DNA from: a virus
Length of the DNA stretch: 20,527 bases
Virus record (IMG/VR): IMGVR_UViG_3300025646_006814
Coordinates: 1-20,527 of that record
Direction: 5' to 3' (one strand)
How positions within the stretch are numbered: position 1 is the stretch's first letter; each line of letters opens with the position of its first letter. Both the position numbers and the translations under genes were made by a program. The notes beneath the pieces were generated by a model. It saw only the letters and a list, made by a program, of their open reading frames with translations, was not told the DNA's origin and did not search any database. Shown piece after piece: positions 3,654-19,380 of this stretch.

Positions 3654-4826
3654 TTAACCTATATAAATTGTCATAGGAACCTTATTTAACTCATTTTGAG
3701 CAGCATCTCCTTCAGCAGCTTTTCTTTCTAATCTAGATTTTCTTGAACTATCGTCTAAATAAACTCTTAATTTTTCTTTTAAAGCTGTTTTTTCACTAGT
3801 ACCTTGGTCAACTAAAGTAGAACCATTTAATGTTACTTCAGCACCTGGAATAGGAACTGAAGAATATTTGTTTCTTACTAAACCTAAAGTTTCTTTTACA
3901 ATTGCTAATGTGTATTCAAAAATCCATTGACGACCAATTGAATTTATTTGAGAATAAACTGGATTAGCATAAGGAACATTAGATACATTAGAAACTAAAT
4001 TACTTCCATCAGATAAATTATCTGAAATTCTATCAGATTTTAAAATATATTCAAACCATAAATTAGTTCCTTCATCAGCAGTTGATGGGATTGGGAATAT
4101 TTTTAATCTGTTATTAATCAATTCAAAACTGTAAGCTGATAATCTAACTTGGTTAGACATTTCTAGAGCTTGAATTGAAGCAATATCGTAGTTTACGGGC
4201 ATTGCTAAGAAACTATAGGCGGTATTATACGCAGTAAATCCATATGAACCCAAGTACCCACCAAAACCGAGACCTGTGTTATACCCAGGTGCTCCATAAT
4301 AATATTGGGCAGAAGCTGGTGTATCGTTGTAGTAAACTCGTTTAATCTCTAAATCACTGCCTGAGATTCCGTTTTCAGTAGCCCAGGTATCTAAATTGTA
4401 AGTTTGTTGTGAACCTGTTAAAACAATAGAACCACTATACCAAGTTACATTTCCTCCAACTCCTGCTTCTTCAGCATATTGTTGAGAAATCCTAATAATA
4501 TTAGAAAAATTAGGAGTAATTACAGTATTATTTAATTCTGAGGCAGGGTATGTAGTAGTATTTGAACCAATAAGATCAACTAAATCTTCTCTAACTAAAT
4601 AGGCATAAATTTCATTACCATAAGTAGTTACAGCTTCTTCAAAAGCAGTATAAAATTGGATATCTTGCAATTCAACATTTTCAATAGGATAACCCAAACG
4701 CTGAGCACAAAATTTAGCTACTTTATCAGCATCTACTTGGAAATCTAGGTCATTATCATAGAATCCAAATGGTGTATCGCCTGGGGAGAATGAGGAACTA
4801 CCTGGCCAAATAGGAATTACTGCCAT
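3654..4826 (-). CDS. 13: gp13-like neck (head completion) protein
   Basis: This 390-residue protein starts MAVIPIWPGSSSF and has an alpha-helical N-terminal segment (VDADKVAKFCAQRLGYPIEN, about residues 31-50). A helix with FEEAVTTYGNEIYAYLVRE follows, typical of the connector/adaptor helical bundle. A beta-rich, Tyr/Gly-rich middle (residues 150-235, including a YYYGAPGYNTGLGFGGYLG loop) is probably an insertion. The C-terminus returns to a helix with FEYTLAIVKETLGLVRNKYSSV and ends in charged Lys/Arg. T4 gp13 is 309 residues, so this version is longer. It sits directly before the gp14- and gp15-like genes. In T4, gp13 seals the portal after packaging. I am fairly confident of the neck role, less so of strict gp13 orthology. 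Confidence 0.6.
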   Translation of the reverse strand: MAVIPIWPGSSSFSPGDTPFGFYDNDLDFQVDADKVAKFCAQRLGYPIENVELQDIQFYTAFEEAVTTYGNEIYAYLVREDLVDLIGSNTTTYPASELNNTVITPNFSNIIRISQQYAEEAGVGGNVTWYSGSIVLTGSQQTYNLDTWATENGISGSDLEIKRVYYNDTPASAQYYYGAPGYNTGLGFGGYLGSYGFTAYNTAYSFLAMPVNYDIASIQALEMSNQVRLSAYSFELINNRLKIFPIPSTADEGTNLWFEYILKSDRISDNLSDGSNLVSNVSNVPYANPVYSQINSIGRQWIFEYTLAIVKETLGLVRNKYSSVPIPGAEVTLNGSTLVDQGTSEKTALKEKLRVYLDDSSRKSRLERKAAEGDAAQNELNKVPMTIYIG

Positions 4827-4837
4827 AATTTTTTATA

Positions 4838-5287
4838 TTAAGCGTTTACAAATACGTACTCTACATCAATACTACTCCCTGAAGCATATACTGAAACTAC
4901 TTCTAAAGTTGATGATAAAGGACCACTAAATTCACTTCCAGTAATATTAGCACTAGTCCACATAAATGATGAAGTAGGAAGTACTTCTTGGCTCCAGTAC
5001 TCATCACTAGAACCACTTAAAGTAACTATTAAACTGTAAGCATCATCTAAATTAGTAATTCGAGCATATTTAATACTACTAGAAGGAAAGGTTCCAGCTC
5101 CAGGATTTACTCCATTAATATTAATTAAATCAATAGAAGTTGTATTAGGACAAGTTACTATTCTTCTATCAAAATTAGTAACATCACTAACTTTATAGAG
5201 AGTTTCATTAAGAGTACGAACATCTTTTACTATATGTTCTTCTTTTACTGTAACTTGAAATGTAGTACCAGATATTGTAGAGGCCAT
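4838..5287 (-). CDS. Small beta-rich virion-type protein, function unknown
   Basis: This 149-residue protein starts MASTISGTTFQVTVKEE. It is rich in Ser, Thr, Val and Ile with alternating hydrophobic residues (for example YSLIVTLSGSS and SSIDVEYVFVNA at the C-terminus), as expected for a beta-sandwich. It has no signal peptide, membrane segment or catalytic motif that I can see. It leads the neck gene block, directly before gp13-like, with an ATATTTAT element 14 nt upstream. I infer a head- or neck-decorating or small structural protein. The position would also suit a head-tail connector accessory. I do not recognise a named family. Confidence 0.6.
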   Translation of the reverse strand: MASTISGTTFQVTVKEEHIVKDVRTLNETLYKVSDVTNFDRRIVTCPNTTSIDLININGVNPGAGTFPSSSIKYARITNLDDAYSLIVTLSGSSDEYWSQEVLPTSSFMWTSANITGSEFSGPLSSTLEVVSVYASGSSIDVEYVFVNA

Positions 5288-5293
5288 ATTAAT

Positions 5294-5309
5294 ATTTTGT
5301 TATAAATAT
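5294..5309 (-). promoter_or_regulatory. ATATTTAT element before the neck gene block (candidate promoter)
   Basis: The sense strand reads ATATTTATAACAAAAT, and the octamer ends 14 nt before the ATG at 5287. It lies in the short gap after the PhoH gene, where a new transcription unit (small virion protein, gp13, gp14, gp15) would begin. The complementary strand reads TATAAATAT. Confidence 0.55.
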
Positions 5310-5311
5310 TG

Positions 5312-5338
5312 AAAAAATATGGTTCCTTCCTATTTTTT
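5312..5338 (-). terminator. Possible weak terminator at the end of phoH
   Basis: The sense strand reads AAAAAATAGG, a six-base loop, then CC-A-TATTTTTT. This gives an A/T stem of about eight pairs capped by two G-C pairs, with a T-run on the 3' side. It overlaps the phoH stop codon. The G-C content is too low for a confident call, but it separates two blocks and lies just before an ATATTTAT element. Confidence 0.3.
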
Positions 5339-6058
5339 ACGACCGCTTGAACCTTGAATTCCAGCTAATCCTCTTTCTTCAGCTTCCTCATATATTTCTA
5401 GTAAATCATCTACAATTGGATCTCTGTGGTTATTCATTAGTGTTACAGCTGTCATGTTTTTAATTTTACGAGCAGCTGCATATAAAAATCTAAATCCGGA
5501 ATCACGTTTTGATTTTAAATCAACCTGTCCATCATCTCCACAAATAATCATTTTGGAACGTAAACCAATTCTGGTTACAATCATTTCCATTTGTTCGTGA
5601 GTTACGTTTTGGGCCTCGTCTACAATAATAATACTATCGAGAAAAGTTCTACCACGCATAAAAGATACAGGAACAATTTCGATTTTACCCTCTTCGATGA
5701 GCTTTTCGATTTTGACTTTATCATATAAAGCAAACATGTTTTGATAGATAGGTTGAACCCACGGATCCATTTTTTCCCTTAAATCACCTGGTAAGAATCC
5801 AATGTCTTCTTTTGAGACAGTAGGTCTTGTAATGATAATTTTTTCAATCTCTCTCATAAACAATTTATCGAGAGCAATTTGACATGCTAGCATTGTTTTA
5901 CCGGAACCGGCTTTACCTGCTAACAAGGTAAGTGTACTATCTAATATCTTAGCTTTAGCTTCTTTTTGTTCTTCGTTTAATGAAATTTTAAATTTGATAG
6001 GTCCTTTGGGTTTACGTTTTTCAATGAATACCTGATCGGTATGATGATTTGATGCCAT
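5330..6058 (-). CDS. phoH: PhoH-like P-loop ATPase
   Basis: This 242-residue protein is a full-length PhoH domain. Walker A is GKAGSGKT (residues 48-55), Walker B is IIIVDEAQ (143-150), and GDDGQVD (174-180) is the PhoH sensor segment. The family signatures ITRPTVSKEDIGFLPGD and MRGRTF are also present. PhoH proteins are RNA/ATP-binding ATPases whose cellular role is unresolved; they are very common in marine myoviruses, sometimes linked to phosphate stress. The ATG at 6058 lies 38 nt inside the preceding decarboxylase-like gene, in another frame. No nearer in-frame ATG exists, so the two genes are probably translationally coupled. It is the last gene of the enzyme cassette. Confidence 0.95.
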   Translation of the reverse strand: MASNHHTDQVFIEKRKPKGPIKFKISLNEEQKEAKAKILDSTLTLLAGKAGSGKTMLACQIALDKLFMREIEKIIITRPTVSKEDIGFLPGDLREKMDPWVQPIYQNMFALYDKVKIEKLIEEGKIEIVPVSFMRGRTFLDSIIIVDEAQNVTHEQMEMIVTRIGLRSKMIICGDDGQVDLKSKRDSGFRFLYAAARKIKNMTAVTLMNNHRDPIVDDLLEIYEEAEERGLAGIQGSSGRKK

Positions 6059-6773
6059 TATCTTTGTAGTTGATTTTTACTAATTTATCAAGGCCAGCAT
6101 TTACATGCATTGTATCTTCTAATACGGTCTCGAAATTGAATCTCTCATCCAGAGGTAGAACTAAATCTACTTGGGATCCCCATCTAATTAGACTAAATCT
6201 TTCGTTTTGAGCACAAAGATCTAATTGCTTCTTAAATGGAGCAATTACATTTACATCTTCATCGGCTATTTGGATTAAATAATATGTGTAATCTAGAGAA
6301 GGAACATACACTTGGTTAAACATTCGTTCATTGTACTTTAAGTACTCCATGTTATTAGGGTTGATTACTTTATTAAGAATATCCTTCTCAACCGCTAACA
6401 TAGGTTTATTCGTTGATTCAATCGGTTCTAATGATTCGTACGTGAGTACTCCACCATAAGGGATTCGATTGATATGGACGTCGTAAAACGACATAAAAAT
6501 ACCAATTACCAGCGACGGTTTATCATACTCGTCGTTACCCATAACGTCTTTTAAAGTGTAATCTATTCCTTTTATTTCAACAACCGCTTCATCTGGTTGT
6601 ACAACTTTTTGATATATAATTGTTCCATCCGCTGGGCTATAAAAGTGTTCCCAATCAATGTAATTTGGACGAAGAGGATCTCTAAAGAAAAATGTATTGC
6701 TTAATTCGCCTACAGGCATTTTTTGAAGTTCTTTAACTTCTCCGTTTAACCAATCTTCTAATCTTTCAGCCAT
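6021..6773 (-). CDS. Phosphatidylserine decarboxylase-like pyruvoyl enzyme
   Basis: This 250-residue protein carries the ordered motifs of the phosphatidylserine decarboxylase family. These are FYSPADGTI (residues 44-52, Asp48), an IKG near residue 68, FMSFYDVHINRIPYGG (93-108, His100), NER (148-150), and RWGSQVDLVLP (197-207). In the family, the enzyme cuts itself between Gly and Ser, and the Ser becomes a pyruvoyl cofactor; here that would be Gly199-Ser200. The catalytic Asp, His and Ser all appear to be present. The usual reaction turns phosphatidylserine into phosphatidylethanolamine plus CO2. No membrane segment is seen, as in the short soluble type. It begins at a TAATG overlap with the pentein gene, so the two are probably made together. 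It might act on host membrane lipid or on another carboxylated substrate. The family is clear; the substrate is not. Confidence 0.85.
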   Translation of the reverse strand: MAERLEDWLNGEVKELQKMPVGELSNTFFFRDPLRPNYIDWEHFYSPADGTIIYQKVVQPDEAVVEIKGIDYTLKDVMGNDEYDKPSLVIGIFMSFYDVHINRIPYGGVLTYESLEPIESTNKPMLAVEKDILNKVINPNNMEYLKYNERMFNQVYVPSLDYTYYLIQIADEDVNVIAPFKKQLDLCAQNERFSLIRWGSQVDLVLPLDERFNFETVLEDTMHVNAGLDKLVKINYKDNGIKSSYRSGIH

Positions 6774-7687
6774 TATAATAAAGATTTAGAATGATCAACT
6801 CTATTTAAGTGCATTACCATACAAGATAGCATAGCTCCTGATTTTATGTATTCAGACAGGTTAAAGATAACTGGTTCCATACCTGCGTTAGAGCATATTT
6901 TTTCTAAGCTTTCAATTTTATGTTTTTCCATCTCATAATATTCATGAGATTTTTTTAGCTCAGCAATATTTGAAGCACATAAAATCATATTTCCTAATCT
7001 AACAGAATTAGTCATACCACCTAAAGCATCATCTGTATCAACCGGGATTATTTCAGTATGTTGTTCTATTGCGCGTAACTCTTCAGGAGTATATAGTTCC
7101 GTGGCTACTAATGTTTGATCGTTATTTAACGCAAATATGCTGCAATCTAAATGGTACATATATTCATCTGTCATAGCAACCTTAATAATATTCATACCAA
7201 ATTCTTTTTCCATCCACTCGTATGTTTTAATGTTAGAGCGAATACCATAACCTCCGATATAAACATTATCATAAAGATATTTAATGTCTGCTTCACCTTC
7301 CCATTTATAAGGAGAAATGTGAGTTTTATATCCCATTTGTTGGAAAAATTTCTCACCAACTAATTCTTCACCTTTACGAGGATCTGATGTGTAATTTGAT
7401 AATAAAATAATATTATCATTTGTAATATGAGGTAATTGTAAACCTAAATTTGCAACGTAGACTTGGTCTTGATAACTTCCTTCGGAAGGAAGTAAATAGA
7501 CAAGTGATTGGCCTGACATAAAGTTGTACAGGTCCATAAATTGTTTATATGCTTTAGGTCTGTTAATTTGGAGTTCGTCATCTGTTAACTCTTGCATCCA
7601 AATATTATTTGGATCATTCGTAGAGAGAGAAAACGGAAAATTCATTACATAACTTTGTAAGTGTAACTGAGATGGGGTTTCTTTCAT
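6773..7687 (-). CDS. Pentein-fold guanidino-group enzyme (amidinotransferase / arginine deiminase / dimethylargininase-like)
   Basis: This 304-residue protein shows the motif order of the pentein superfamily (amidinotransferase/DDAH type). The motifs are NFPFSLSTNDPNNIWM near the N-terminus, QDQVYVANLGL (residues 73-83), WEGEAD (129-134), GGYGIRS (145-151), YHLDCSIFAL (178-187), TNSVRLGN (226-233) and SEYIKSGAMLSCMVMHL (278-294). By family analogy the catalytic residues would be Cys289, His179 and Glu130/Asp134, all present. Members hydrolyse or transfer the guanidine carbon of arginine, methylarginines or agmatine. I cannot tell which from sequence. It is the first gene after the gp23 terminator and has its own ATATTTAT element. 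It is coupled by TAATG to the decarboxylase-like gene and, through that gene, to phoH. I know of no settled role for such an enzyme in a T4-like structural cluster. Confidence 0.8.
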   Translation of the reverse strand: MKETPSQLHLQSYVMNFPFSLSTNDPNNIWMQELTDDELQINRPKAYKQFMDLYNFMSGQSLVYLLPSEGSYQDQVYVANLGLQLPHITNDNIILLSNYTSDPRKGEELVGEKFFQQMGYKTHISPYKWEGEADIKYLYDNVYIGGYGIRSNIKTYEWMEKEFGMNIIKVAMTDEYMYHLDCSIFALNNDQTLVATELYTPEELRAIEQHTEIIPVDTDDALGGMTNSVRLGNMILCASNIAELKKSHEYYEMEKHKIESLEKICSNAGMEPVIFNLSEYIKSGAMLSCMVMHLNRVDHSKSLL

Positions 7688-7702: not shown

Positions 7703-7718
7703 TATTTACTATAAATAT
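7703..7718 (-). promoter_or_regulatory. ATATTTAT element before the enzyme cassette (candidate promoter)
   Basis: The sense strand reads ATATTTATAGTAAATA, and the octamer ends 23 nt before the ATG at 7687. It sits between the gp23 terminator and the pentein gene, where a new transcript must start. The complement reads TATAAATAT. Confidence 0.55.
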
Positions 7719-7730
7719 AGTAAGTACCTA

Positions 7731-7765
7731 GTAGAATAAAGAAGGGCCTAGATTTCTCTAGGCCC
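7731..7765 (-). terminator. Rho-independent terminator after the major capsid gene
   Basis: A perfect 9-bp stem (7744-7752 with 7757-7765) is closed by a four-base loop. In the transcript it reads GGGCCTAGA-GAAA-TCTAGGCCC, a GNRA-type tetraloop, followed by the T-rich TTCTTTATT. It begins 23 nt after the gp23 stop and precedes the next candidate promoter. Confidence 0.85.
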
Positions 7766-7788
7766 CCTTTATCTATTGAACTATTCTA

Positions 7789-9438
7789 TTAAAGAGTGTT
7801 CAATCCTTCTACGTATACTTTACCGTAGAATTCAGGACGAAGCATCTTCTTAGCGTAACGAGTCAATAAACCTTTACGTGGAGTGAAGGTATTTGGATCG
7901 TAAAGAAGTGGAGTCATGATTAATGGAATGTATGGAGCGAATACAGCACCAGCTTCCAAGAATTGAGTACCTCTGAAACCAACTAAGATAGTGTTTTCAG
8001 TCATGTATGGGTTCTTGTAAACTGTGTATCTGTTATTCAACTGACCAGCTTTCTGTACACCAAATGCGTAAGAAGCTTTAGATACATCACCATCAGAATT
8101 AGCAGCGTATCCTGGGATTGATTCCAAGATAGTAGCTACTGTAGGAGATACTACCATAAAGTTAGCACCACCTCTTAAAGTCAATTGGTGAATCTTGTTA
8201 CTTAATTTTTGTAATTTAGTACCAAGAGTTTGGAACCACTGACCTTGAGTGTTGTAGAATCCAGAAGTAGCATCACCAAATGCAGTACCTGCATTGTTGA
8301 TTACTTGGTTGTTCTGAGCTGACCAGTATTCAGTACCAGCTGCAGCATCTTGAATCAACATATCTAAGATTTCCATATCAATTTCTAATGAAATGTACTC
8401 ACTCATGATGTTAGTTAATTCAGCTTCAGCATCTAAAGATTGGTAAGCGTTCAAATCTTGAGCAAATTCAGGAGTCCAAACTGCTTTCAATTTACGAGTC
8501 TTAGCAACGATCGCTTCAGAAACCATTTGGATGTTGATTTCAGGAATTGCGATTGGGTTGTTGTTAGCGTTTAATGCAGTGTTACCATCTTCAAAGTCAC
8601 CTCTGTTTTTGTCAGTAGGTTGGATTGAATAAGTAACAGCGTAACTAGCACCTGTTGGTCCTGTGAATGCTCCATCTAATAAAGAACTAGCAACTACGAA
8701 AACTACGTTAGTACCATCGTAAGAAGTAAACGCTGGTAAGTTATTAGCTACAGTAAGTGAACCTGAGTTGATAGTGAAAGAACGAACAGCTTCAGAATCT
8801 AAAGTAGGTAAACTAGCAGCAGTAACACTTAGAGTTTTGTAATCACCAGCAGCAGCAGAAGCTGAGTAGTCAGAATCAAAGTTAAATGTAGCCCAAGTAG
8901 CTGAACCTGTAGTTACACTTACTACTGAAGAAGTGTTATTTACAGAGTAACCAAATCTACCAGCACCATACAAACCACCAGCAGTTGCAGGAGTTGAGAA
9001 TGGGTAATCAGAGCTAGATCTGTTACCGAACATTGAACCACCAGAAGTGAATGGGTTTTTAGTAGTACCGTACTGGAAGTCTAAGTAGAATACTAGACCA
9101 GAAGGTAAGTTCATTGGTTGAACAGAAACGAATTCTTTAGCAGCAATTTGACCGAATACTTTTCTTACCAAAGGAAGAGCGATACCAGCCCATTGCTCAC
9201 CAACACCCGCAGTAAAAGTACCTACTGAAGAAGTACCACCACCAGTTTGTGAAGATTCAACCACCAATTGTTTTGCTTGGTTCTCAAGGATCAAAGACAT
9301 ATTGTTTTTGTGAGTCTCGTTACCAAGACCTTCCAATAAACCTGTCTTTTCCCACTTAGAAGCCAATTTAGCAGCGTCAGATTGCATGTTTTTCCAACCT
9401 TGACCTGCAGATTCTAAAAGAGAATTTAATTGTGACAT
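7789..9438 (-). CDS. 23: Major capsid protein gp23
   Basis: This is a protein of about 549 residues. A TTG lies two codons upstream of the ATG at 9438; I prefer the ATG because it gives MSQLNSLLE. In T4-like phages, gp23 forms the hexamers of the prohead shell and is cut near residue 65 by gp21. Here a helical N-terminus ending LILENQAKQLVVE (about residues 49-61) resembles that propeptide, with cleavage plausible after Glu52 or Glu61. Conserved stretches include NLPSGLVFYLDFQYG (110-124), matching MTGPTGLIFAMRSRYG in relatives, and near the C-terminus LTRYAKKMLRPEFYGKVYV, matching the T4 TRYG...YYARVYI segment. Residues about 155-290 are a Ser/Thr/Ala-rich, beta-rich insertion, possibly a surface domain like the T4 gp23 insertion. 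It follows gp22 by 20 nt and is followed by a strong terminator, as expected for the most abundant virion protein. Confidence 0.92.
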   Translation of the reverse strand: MSQLNSLLESAGQGWKNMQSDAAKLASKWEKTGLLEGLGNETHKNNMSLILENQAKQLVVESSQTGGGTSSVGTFTAGVGEQWAGIALPLVRKVFGQIAAKEFVSVQPMNLPSGLVFYLDFQYGTTKNPFTSGGSMFGNRSSSDYPFSTPATAGGLYGAGRFGYSVNNTSSVVSVTTGSATWATFNFDSDYSASAAAGDYKTLSVTAASLPTLDSEAVRSFTINSGSLTVANNLPAFTSYDGTNVVFVVASSLLDGAFTGPTGASYAVTYSIQPTDKNRGDFEDGNTALNANNNPIAIPEINIQMVSEAIVAKTRKLKAVWTPEFAQDLNAYQSLDAEAELTNIMSEYISLEIDMEILDMLIQDAAAGTEYWSAQNNQVINNAGTAFGDATSGFYNTQGQWFQTLGTKLQKLSNKIHQLTLRGGANFMVVSPTVATILESIPGYAANSDGDVSKASYAFGVQKAGQLNNRYTVYKNPYMTENTILVGFRGTQFLEAGAVFAPYIPLIMTPLLYDPNTFTPRKGLLTRYAKKMLRPEFYGKVYVEGLNTL

Positions 9439-9458
9439 TGTCAATAAATTTTAATTAA

Positions 9459-13992: not shown

Positions 13993-14008
13993 ATTTTATT
14001 ATAAATAT
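13993..14008 (-). promoter_or_regulatory. ATATTTAT element before the prohead core block (candidate promoter)
   Basis: The sense strand reads ATATTTATAATAAAAT, the most consensus-like of the six sites. The octamer ends 16 nt before the ATG at 13984. The complement reads TATAAATAT. The gap is otherwise only about 34 nt. Confidence 0.55.
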
Positions 14009-15932: not shown

Positions 15933-15948
15933 TTATTATTATAAATAT
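15933..15948 (-). promoter_or_regulatory. ATATTTAT element before the portal gene (candidate promoter)
   Basis: The sense strand reads ATATTTATAATAATAA. It touches the last base of the gp17 stop codon, and the octamer ends 20 nt before the gp20 ATG. The complement reads TATAAATAT. The position would allow separate transcription of the portal gene. Confidence 0.55.
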
Positions 15949-18461: not shown

Positions 18462-18477
18462 ATTTTATTATAAATAT
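18462..18477 (-). promoter_or_regulatory. ATATTTAT element before the terminase block (candidate promoter)
   Basis: The sense strand reads ATATTTATAATAAAAT, identical over 16 nt to the site before the prohead core block. It lies just after the kinase gene stop, and the octamer ends 17 nt before the ATG at 18452. The complement reads TATAAATAT. Confidence 0.55.
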
Positions 18478-18478
18478 G

Positions 18479-19012
18479 TTAAAGATCCATATAATTTACC
18501 ATTTGGAAAATTCGATCTTCAGTGCTACCCTCAAGCACACCATATTTTTTAATGCGATGTTTTTGTTGGCTTAAAATATGTCGAATAATGATATCAATTT
18601 CATTTCTGTAGTTTGCATCTGTTTCTCTAATACCATTATCTTCAATCTCTACACCTTCTGGTGAAACGTAGAAAATATAATCGTATTCTCTAATCAAACG
18701 AATAGCGTAAGCATAAAATGCTTCTTTATCAGTCCAATCCATTGATTTAGAAGCTTGAGCAAAAGCCATTACATCAATGATAGTTCTATCTGTAATGATA
18801 TTATCAATTAGCAATTCGCTTGCTCTCTCAGCCATAAAGACTGTTTGACCTAAAAATGTTGAATCAGTATTTAATGGAATACCCATTGCCATTAGCTCCT
18901 TAGAACGTTCTGTTCTAGTTGTGTATCCTTCAAAATATTTTAGCTCTTTAAGAGCGTTGACAAGTGTAGTTTTACCTACACTCATCGTACCACATAATCC
19001 TATTCTTGCCAT
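18479..19012 (-). CDS. NadR/AAA_28-type P-loop kinase-like protein
   Basis: This 177-residue protein has Walker A GTMSVGKTT (residues 8-16), TDRTIIDVMAF (74-84, Asp75/Arg76), a strand DYIFYVSPEG (111-120) and a lid-like segment GIRETDANYRNEID (127-140). This arrangement is typical of the NadR-type nucleoside/nicotinamide riboside kinase-like ATPases (AAA_28). Those enzymes phosphorylate a small molecule, often in NAD salvage, but the substrate cannot be read from sequence. The start overlaps the preceding cupin gene by 13 nt. It ends the accessory block before an ATATTTAT element. A deoxynucleoside kinase is the main alternative. Confidence 0.75.
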   Translation of the reverse strand: MARIGLCGTMSVGKTTLVNALKELKYFEGYTTRTERSKELMAMGIPLNTDSTFLGQTVFMAERASELLIDNIITDRTIIDVMAFAQASKSMDWTDKEAFYAYAIRLIREYDYIFYVSPEGVEIEDNGIRETDANYRNEIDIIIRHILSQQKHRIKKYGVLEGSTEDRIFQMVNYMDL

Positions 19013-19380
19013 TTTCTATAAACTCTATAACTATCTGAATCAAAGTGTTCAGTTGATACTTCAAAAATTGTTCCGTCAGTTAATGCTTTCAATTGGTGAG
19101 GCATTCCTGGGAATTGTCTAACACTATCTCCTTCACGCAAATGTTGCTCATGTTCCTCACCAGTTTCAGTATCAATCCAACGATACAAAAATTCACCTTT
19201 ATCTACATACCATGTTTCATCTTTTTCTAAGTGGTAGTGCATGCTAAAGTTACAACCTTCTTTGAACACAAGCAACTTACCACAGTAAAGCTCGTTATTT
19301 TCAAAAATAATTTCATGCCCCCAACCTTTAGGAACATTACATTCTTTACATTCTTTAGCGTTAATTACAATTGGTTTCAT
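19000..19380 (-). CDS. Single-domain cupin, possible sugar or sugar-phosphate enzyme
   Basis: This 126-residue protein is one complete cupin domain. Motif 1 contains MHYHLEKDETWYV (residues 47-59), giving His48, His50 and Glu55 as metal ligands. Motif 2 contains FPGMPHQL (90-97), giving His95. The beginning KGWGHEIIFENNELYCGKLL resembles cupins related to mannose-6-phosphate isomerase and lyxose isomerase. Such proteins isomerise or bind sugars, or tailor surface polysaccharide precursors. It sits between a 90-residue unknown protein and the kinase, with overlap, so it likely works with them. The metal site looks intact; the substrate is unknown. Confidence 0.75.
   Translation of the reverse strand: MKPIVINAKECKECNVPKGWGHEIIFENNELYCGKLLVFKEGCNFSMHYHLEKDETWYVDKGEFLYRWIDTETGEEHEQHLREGDSVRQFPGMPHQLKALTDGTIFEVSTEHFDSDSYRVYRKWQE

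Follow-up and report, generated by a model that had tools for sequence, protein, structure and literature searches.

The functional unit described here is a two-enzyme module that consists of a pentein and a protein of the phosphatidylserine decarboxylase (PSD) family. The pair was found in three phage lineages: marine, Bacteroides and Campylobacter phages. We propose that the two proteins act one after the other on a phage-encoded path from arginine to polyamines, making ornithine and then putrescine at the time of head filling; the chances that this proposal is right or wrong appear to us to be about equal. The initial annotation of the locus had suggested both the pairing of a guanidino enzyme with a PSD-type pyruvoyl decarboxylase, which is borne out, and a link to polyamines, which now has support at the level of residues (the Asn, Arg, His and Cys of the pentein and the replacements in the PSD-like protein).

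Gene order and a promoter-like motif

The window, i.e. the whole stretch of DNA analyzed, is a 20.5-kb virus record (20,527 nt) with no larger genome behind it. Its minus strand carries the pentein gene (6773..7687; 304 aa; a predicted ArgZ/AgrE-like arginine dihydrolase), the gene for the PSD-like pyruvoyl decarboxylase (6021..6773; 250 aa; no membrane anchor; PF02666, 2.6e-23) and the gene for a PhoH-like P-loop ATPase (5330..6058; 242 aa; PF02562, 5.8e-62). The stop codon of the pentein gene and the start codon of the PSD gene have one base in common in a TAATG junction (6771..6775, minus strand), and the PSD and PhoH genes overlap by 38 nt (6021-6058). The gene coordinates, the junction and the overlap are all as originally annotated, and the claim of joint translation stands in that the genes make one transcription/translation unit.

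The insertion site of the cassette was also correctly described, with gp23 on one side and the neck genes on the other: the gp23 major capsid gene (7789-9444; phrog_138, 5.9e-69) is located upstream of the pentein gene and a gp13-type neck protein gene (3654-4826; phrog_211, 2e-12) downstream of the PhoH gene. Between gp23 and the pentein gene there is a terminator-like hairpin (7742..7767, minus strand) with 11 pairs followed by CTTTATT, a match to the consensus. An ORF of 149 aa (4838-5287, minus strand) that lies between the PhoH and gp13 genes had no match in the family search; it is variable among relatives (33-60% identity) and undetected in many loci. Elsewhere in the window, upstream of the packaging genes, a P-loop kinase-like gene (AAA_28) and a cupin gene occur together (18479-19380), the cupin belonging to a phage ‘cysteine dioxygenase’ family (phrog_7851, 1.3e-35).

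The motif TATTTATA is present in the window in seven copies, all in the coding strand, and five of them fall in the 446 intergenic bases (minus strand, 5301-5308, 7710-7717, 14000-14007, 15940-15947 and 18469-18476). The five intergenic copies precede the pentein gene, the 149-aa ORF, the portal gene and two others; the copy at 7710..7717, a candidate phage promoter element, is 30 nt before the pentein start. Simulated intergenic sequence contained 0.28 motifs on average, and five copies were reached once in 5000 trials. Among related loci, the 75 nt before the pentein gene contained TAT[TG]TAT in 66 out of 66 cases, and the motif was seen upstream of the PSD and PhoH genes in none (0/54 and 0/58, respectively). 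A scan for sigma-70 promoters gave no excess over shuffled sequences. The core of the T4 late promoter, TATAAATA, is the reverse complement of TATTTATA. This distribution supports the presence of one putative promoter for the pentein, PSD and PhoH genes, of the type used by the structural genes; TATTTATA is thus a candidate promoter of this phage group, and we infer that the pentein operon is transcribed late.

Co-occurrence of the two enzymes in phages

Scans of IMG/VR, queried with the two enzymes, yielded 40, 80 and 80 loci, and the junction statistics were computed for 92 distinct loci with both genes. The one-base overlap of the pentein and PSD genes was observed in 87 of these loci, with a gap of 0-2 bases in the other five; the few loci without one of the two genes reach a contig edge at that place. 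Therefore, the arrangement is not a chance one. All three genes of the cassette are under purifying selection, with median dN/dS values of 0.11 (pentein), 0.10 (PSD) and 0.14 (PhoH).

Of 50,697 public phage records, 45 contain the PSD and 47 the pentein, with the pentein present in all 45 PSD records; these positive records are many copies of two lineages (Campylobacter and Bacteroides phages), so that the counts do not stand for as many independent events. One of the two additional pentein records is Xanthomonas phage phiXF1, which encodes a true ArgZ-type relative (22% identity); in the other, a Campylobacter phage, the pentein is broken. Wider viral searches yielded a single locus with the Bacteroides PSD query and only six with the Campylobacter one.

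The pentein and PSD genes are adjacent in Bacteroides phage SJC03, and in Campylobacter phage NCTC12673 they are located at 34 and 77 kb, 43 kb apart. The initial annotation had held that finding the enzymes scattered would speak against a functional link. Separation does occur in the Campylobacter phages, but the link survives it, since every phage PSD record also carries the pentein. The genes that come after the pair in SJC03 (L120:10852-12334) are dCTP deaminase/dUTPase-like and GMP-reductase-like.

A bacterial origin of the PSD gene was considered and rejected: the sole hit in a scan of 84,980 genomes was a phage contig that had been binned into a Flavobacteriales MAG, and the genome with the nearest bacterial pentein (G231) has no phage-type PSD. 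This nearest bacterial relative is encoded in a chromosomal-looking Bacteroidota contig (L243:9743-11548), directly after an ATP-grasp-like gene. It is possible that it represents the source of the phage pentein or that it belongs to a different pathway; its location next to such a gene, with no PSD of the phage type, indicates that the pentein can serve elsewhere.

Residues and relatives of the two enzymes

The pentein matches PF19420 just over the cut-off (1.5e-5). Its match to the arginine dihydrolase model NF052232 is stronger (5.2e-21), yet the score of 75 bits is below the equivalog cut-off of 450 bits; for this reason we call the protein ArgZ-like and not ArgZ. A phmmer search gave a match to AgrE (6lrf, 6.5e-14), and with the predicted structure (pLDDT 78) the best PDB folds detected by Foldseek were AgrE/ArgZ (1.2e-13), followed by DDAH (1.9e-9). 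Among solved structures, ArgZ/AgrE are nearer to the pentein than DDAH, agmatine deiminase and amidinotransferases by both sequence and fold, so a DDAH identity is not favored despite the PF19420 match.

The key residues of the pentein are N80, R104, E130, D134, R150, H179 and C289. In the phmmer alignment N80, R104, E130, R150 and H179 are paired with N71, R90, E118, R139 and H168 of ArgZ, and C289 corresponds to ArgZ C264; all seven key residues, D134 included, are invariant in 22 sequences from the three phage lineages. The presence of Asn at ArgZ position 71 (ArgZ/AstB), where deiminases carry Asp, is presumably what permits two hydrolyses. According to the titles of PDB entries, a covalent intermediate was trapped in an N71S mutant, and C264S was combined with substrate. 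The substrate carboxylate is bound by a pair of Arg residues in this superfamily (PMC11659421); given the invariant R104 and R150, arginine or another free alpha-amino acid would be expected as the substrate and not agmatine. The nearest relatives and the invariant residues together indicate that the pentein probably makes ornithine.

Thus, the phage protein shares with the dihydrolase domain of ArgZ (Synechocystis Sll1336) and AgrE (Anabaena Alr4995) the pentein fold, Asn at the ArgZ-71 position, the carboxylate-binding Arg pair and the His and Cys. It differs from them in its low identity (∼20%), in having no ornithine cyclodeaminase half and in being phage-encoded. The phage penteins, along with the one bacterial protein from L243, make a separate clade apart from bacterial ArgZ-like proteins (100/100).

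The PSD-like protein matches PF02666 with 83 bits (cut-off 22), and the triad D49, H100 and S200 and the self-cleavage site G199-S200 are invariant in 22 sequences. The closest relatives by motif are short flavobacterial PSDs (FFRNPxR, PxDG, FMSPxxVH, FGSRVD). With the short-type bacterial PSDs in general (PF02666, TIGR00164) the phage protein shares the FFR(D/N)PxR, PxDG, FMSxxxVH and GS self-cleavage motifs; in contrast to them it has GSQ for GSR, the acidic residues D171/E172/D173, inserted segments and no N-terminal hairpin.

The last difference was assessed by the best mean hydrophobicity over 19 N-terminal residues, up to the start of the PADG motif, with 23 short-type flavobacterial PSDs taken for comparison. 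The maximum did not exceed 0.5 in the phage proteins where PADG was located, versus 1.85-3.06 in the 23 flavobacterial PSDs; it was below zero for the N-termini of the Bacteroides and Campylobacter phage proteins, and the value of 0.95 for phage protein L080, in which the motif was not located, comes from a scan of the whole protein. The N-terminal transmembrane hairpin, present in the 23 flavobacterial PSDs, is missing from the phage proteins.

Several residues distinguish host PSDs from the phage proteins as well. At positions that are invariant within each group, GSR is changed to GSQ, ALARR is replaced by EDVNV in the marine phage clade, and an invariant Gly of host PSDs is replaced by Asp171, which the three phage lineages all share. 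Where host PSDs have conserved Arg, the phage proteins carry Gln, Asn or Val, and acidic residues are gained. Such loss of positive and gain of negative charge, at positions that may contact the substrate, fits a substrate that is cationic and no longer an anionic lipid. Taken together, the loss of the anchor and of Arg residues and the gain of acidic ones speak for a cationic amino acid as the substrate and against a lipid. One more candidate, the change of Tyr137 (E. coli PSD) to Phe as a sign of lost phosphate binding, was rejected because flavobacterial PSDs also carry Phe.

In the phylogenetic tree one branch (97/95) splits the phage enzymes from host PSDs, with long branches making the inner order unsure. 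The structure model is weak (pLDDT 59), of too low quality for locating the replaced residues, and its only confident fold match, itself a weak one, is PsiD (E 0.022, ∼11% identity), the L-tryptophan decarboxylase of psilocybin synthesis, which is related to PSDs (PMC12099186). PsiD is a pyruvoyl enzyme of the PSD fold whose substrate is a free amino acid, as predicted for the phage enzyme, although it is fungal and its substrate is aromatic. Tentatively, with the chances somewhat against it, we regard the phage protein as an ornithine decarboxylase of the PSD fold, i.e. a membrane-lipid enzyme that was made soluble by phages, adapted to a cationic amino acid and paired with an arginine dihydrolase. 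A PSD-fold enzyme acting on ornithine was not found in the open-licence literature searched.

Proposed route, alternatives and implications

In the first step of the proposed route, as suggested by residues and fold, Cys289 would attack the guanidinium group of free L-arginine, and Asn80 (ArgZ Asn71) would allow double hydrolysis to L-ornithine, CO2 and two ammonia molecules. In the second step, the PSD-like protein would cleave itself at Gly199-Ser200 to produce the pyruvoyl group and would then convert ornithine to putrescine; the loss of the anchor and Arg residues and the gain of Asp and Glu would suit a soluble cationic amino acid and not an anionic membrane lipid. The third step concerns timing: the promoter-like element of the module also precedes the portal and other structural-region genes, and for this reason the amine would be made during head assembly and filling. 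There, polyamines could neutralize the charge of DNA in the heads, and the ammonia released may be of use as well. Some phages package polyamines, and T4 needs them for DNA synthesis and maturation (PMC7226272). Consecutive steps from arginine through ornithine to putrescine would explain the joint inheritance of both enzymes in three phage lineages.

Putrescine is made via agmatine and carbamoylputrescine in C. jejuni, a pathway that has also been predicted, with partial verification, for B. thetaiotaomicron (PMC10135574). The phage route would thus skip host steps, bypassing the conversion of arginine to agmatine, carbamoylputrescine and putrescine.

Other readings of the pair have to be weighed. 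The decarboxylase could act on another cationic amino acid (arginine, lysine or carboxyspermidine), with the pair serving nitrogen release or arginine depletion and not putrescine synthesis; we consider this unlikely, though far from negligible. The exact substrate of the PSD-like protein is deduced from sequence, which leaves room for such chemistry, and the distance of 43 kb between the Campylobacter phage genes implies that channelling is not needed. Downstream polyamine genes are missing too: PF01564, PF02784, PF02675 and PF03435 had no match in six long phage records, i.e. no members of the spermidine synthase, AdoMet decarboxylase, PLP ornithine/arginine decarboxylase and saccharopine-type dehydrogenase families and no SpeE, SpeD or ODC gene were found in these records; with these four families missing, nothing else in the six records points to polyamines, which counts against the proposed route. 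Still, strict co-occurrence and the junction with a shared base favor consecutive steps, and a pentein with conserved carboxylate-binding Arg residues is not expected to follow an arginine decarboxylase and act on agmatine. A phage-encoded carboxyspermidine route was rejected, as PF03435 had no match in the six long records and the dehydrogenase beside the pair in SJC03 is GMP-reductase-like.

The initial annotation offered membrane aminolipid remodelling as an alternative. The phage protein would then be a real phosphatidylserine decarboxylase shifting host membranes toward phosphatidylethanolamine late in infection, and the pentein would be a separate arginine enzyme. The clear PF02666 match and the intact pyruvoyl site agree with this reading, and viral psd is counted among lipid genes in an ocean survey (PMC11360552). 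We find it improbable, however, in view of the lost transmembrane hairpin (kept by the 23 flavobacterial PSDs), the replacement of conserved Arg residues of host PSDs along with the gain of acidic ones, and the single branch that sets all phage enzymes apart from host PSDs; it also fails to explain why the protein is so tightly paired with an arginine enzyme across three phage lineages.

Attachment of amines to DNA is exemplified by putrescinyl-thymine in phage phiW-14. That the pair makes an amine which is attached to DNA or protein, and not a free polyamine, is a still fainter prospect: the SJC03 pair is indeed located among DNA-metabolism genes and the NCTC12673 pair near gp41/gp45 genes, but only two of the six long records with the pair have a thymidylate-synthase-type enzyme. 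Thymidine hypermodification was rejected on the same count, as this family would be expected for 5-hydroxymethyl-dUMP chemistry.

PhoH (an RNA helicase-like ATPase) has a nearly complete domain that spans most of the protein encoded in the window (PF02562, 209 bits, profile positions 6-205 of 205). In the marine clade its gene comes after the PSD gene wherever the flank is long enough, and the two genes overlap in 73 of the 92 loci, with the overlap lost in at least 10. Accordingly, of the three coupled genes described in the initial annotation, the pentein-PSD junction is kept and the coupling to PhoH is unequal. A three-member system with PhoH functionally tied to both enzymes is, for all its constancy of position in the marine clade, very improbable, since phages without the pair commonly carry PhoH, and SJC03 and NCTC12673 carry the pair with no PF02562 match; it is the latter fact that makes the unit a pair and not a trio. 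PhoH is probably a downstream neighbor in the same transcription unit and not a part of the pathway. A 268,739-base phage record (G002) has a second PhoH gene far from the cassette (L219, G002:C1:248898-249509), with a product 36% identical to the PhoH of the window.

Phage polyamine genes as such are known, including those for pyruvoyl-dependent ornithine decarboxylases of the SpeD fold; Li et al. (2023) reported arginase homologues in giant viruses and none in phage, with no mention of PSD-fold enzymes, dihydrolases or Campylobacter phages (PMC9992855). The viral enzymes of that study resemble the predicted activity of the phage pair in leading from arginine or ornithine toward putrescine with the use of a pyruvoyl enzyme; they differ in fold (AdoMetDC and metal-dependent arginase). 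In the literature searched (open-licence only, so that an earlier account may exist elsewhere) we found no description of the pentein-PSD pair and no paper on phosphatidylserine decarboxylase in Campylobacter phages.

Marine surveys now interpret viral PSD genes as lipid-remodelling genes, and annotations of Campylobacter phages do likewise; these assignments are wrong if ornithine is the substrate of the enzyme. Should the arginine-to-putrescine route prove true, the PSD fold would add to the three folds that PMC9992855 counts for ornithine decarboxylation, and phages would have a path from arginine to putrescine with no need for arginase. A large group of aquatic T4-like phages (>90 distinct loci) would then make its own putrescine, apparently skipping the agmatine pathway of the hosts, by a module joined to a role in the filling of the phage head.
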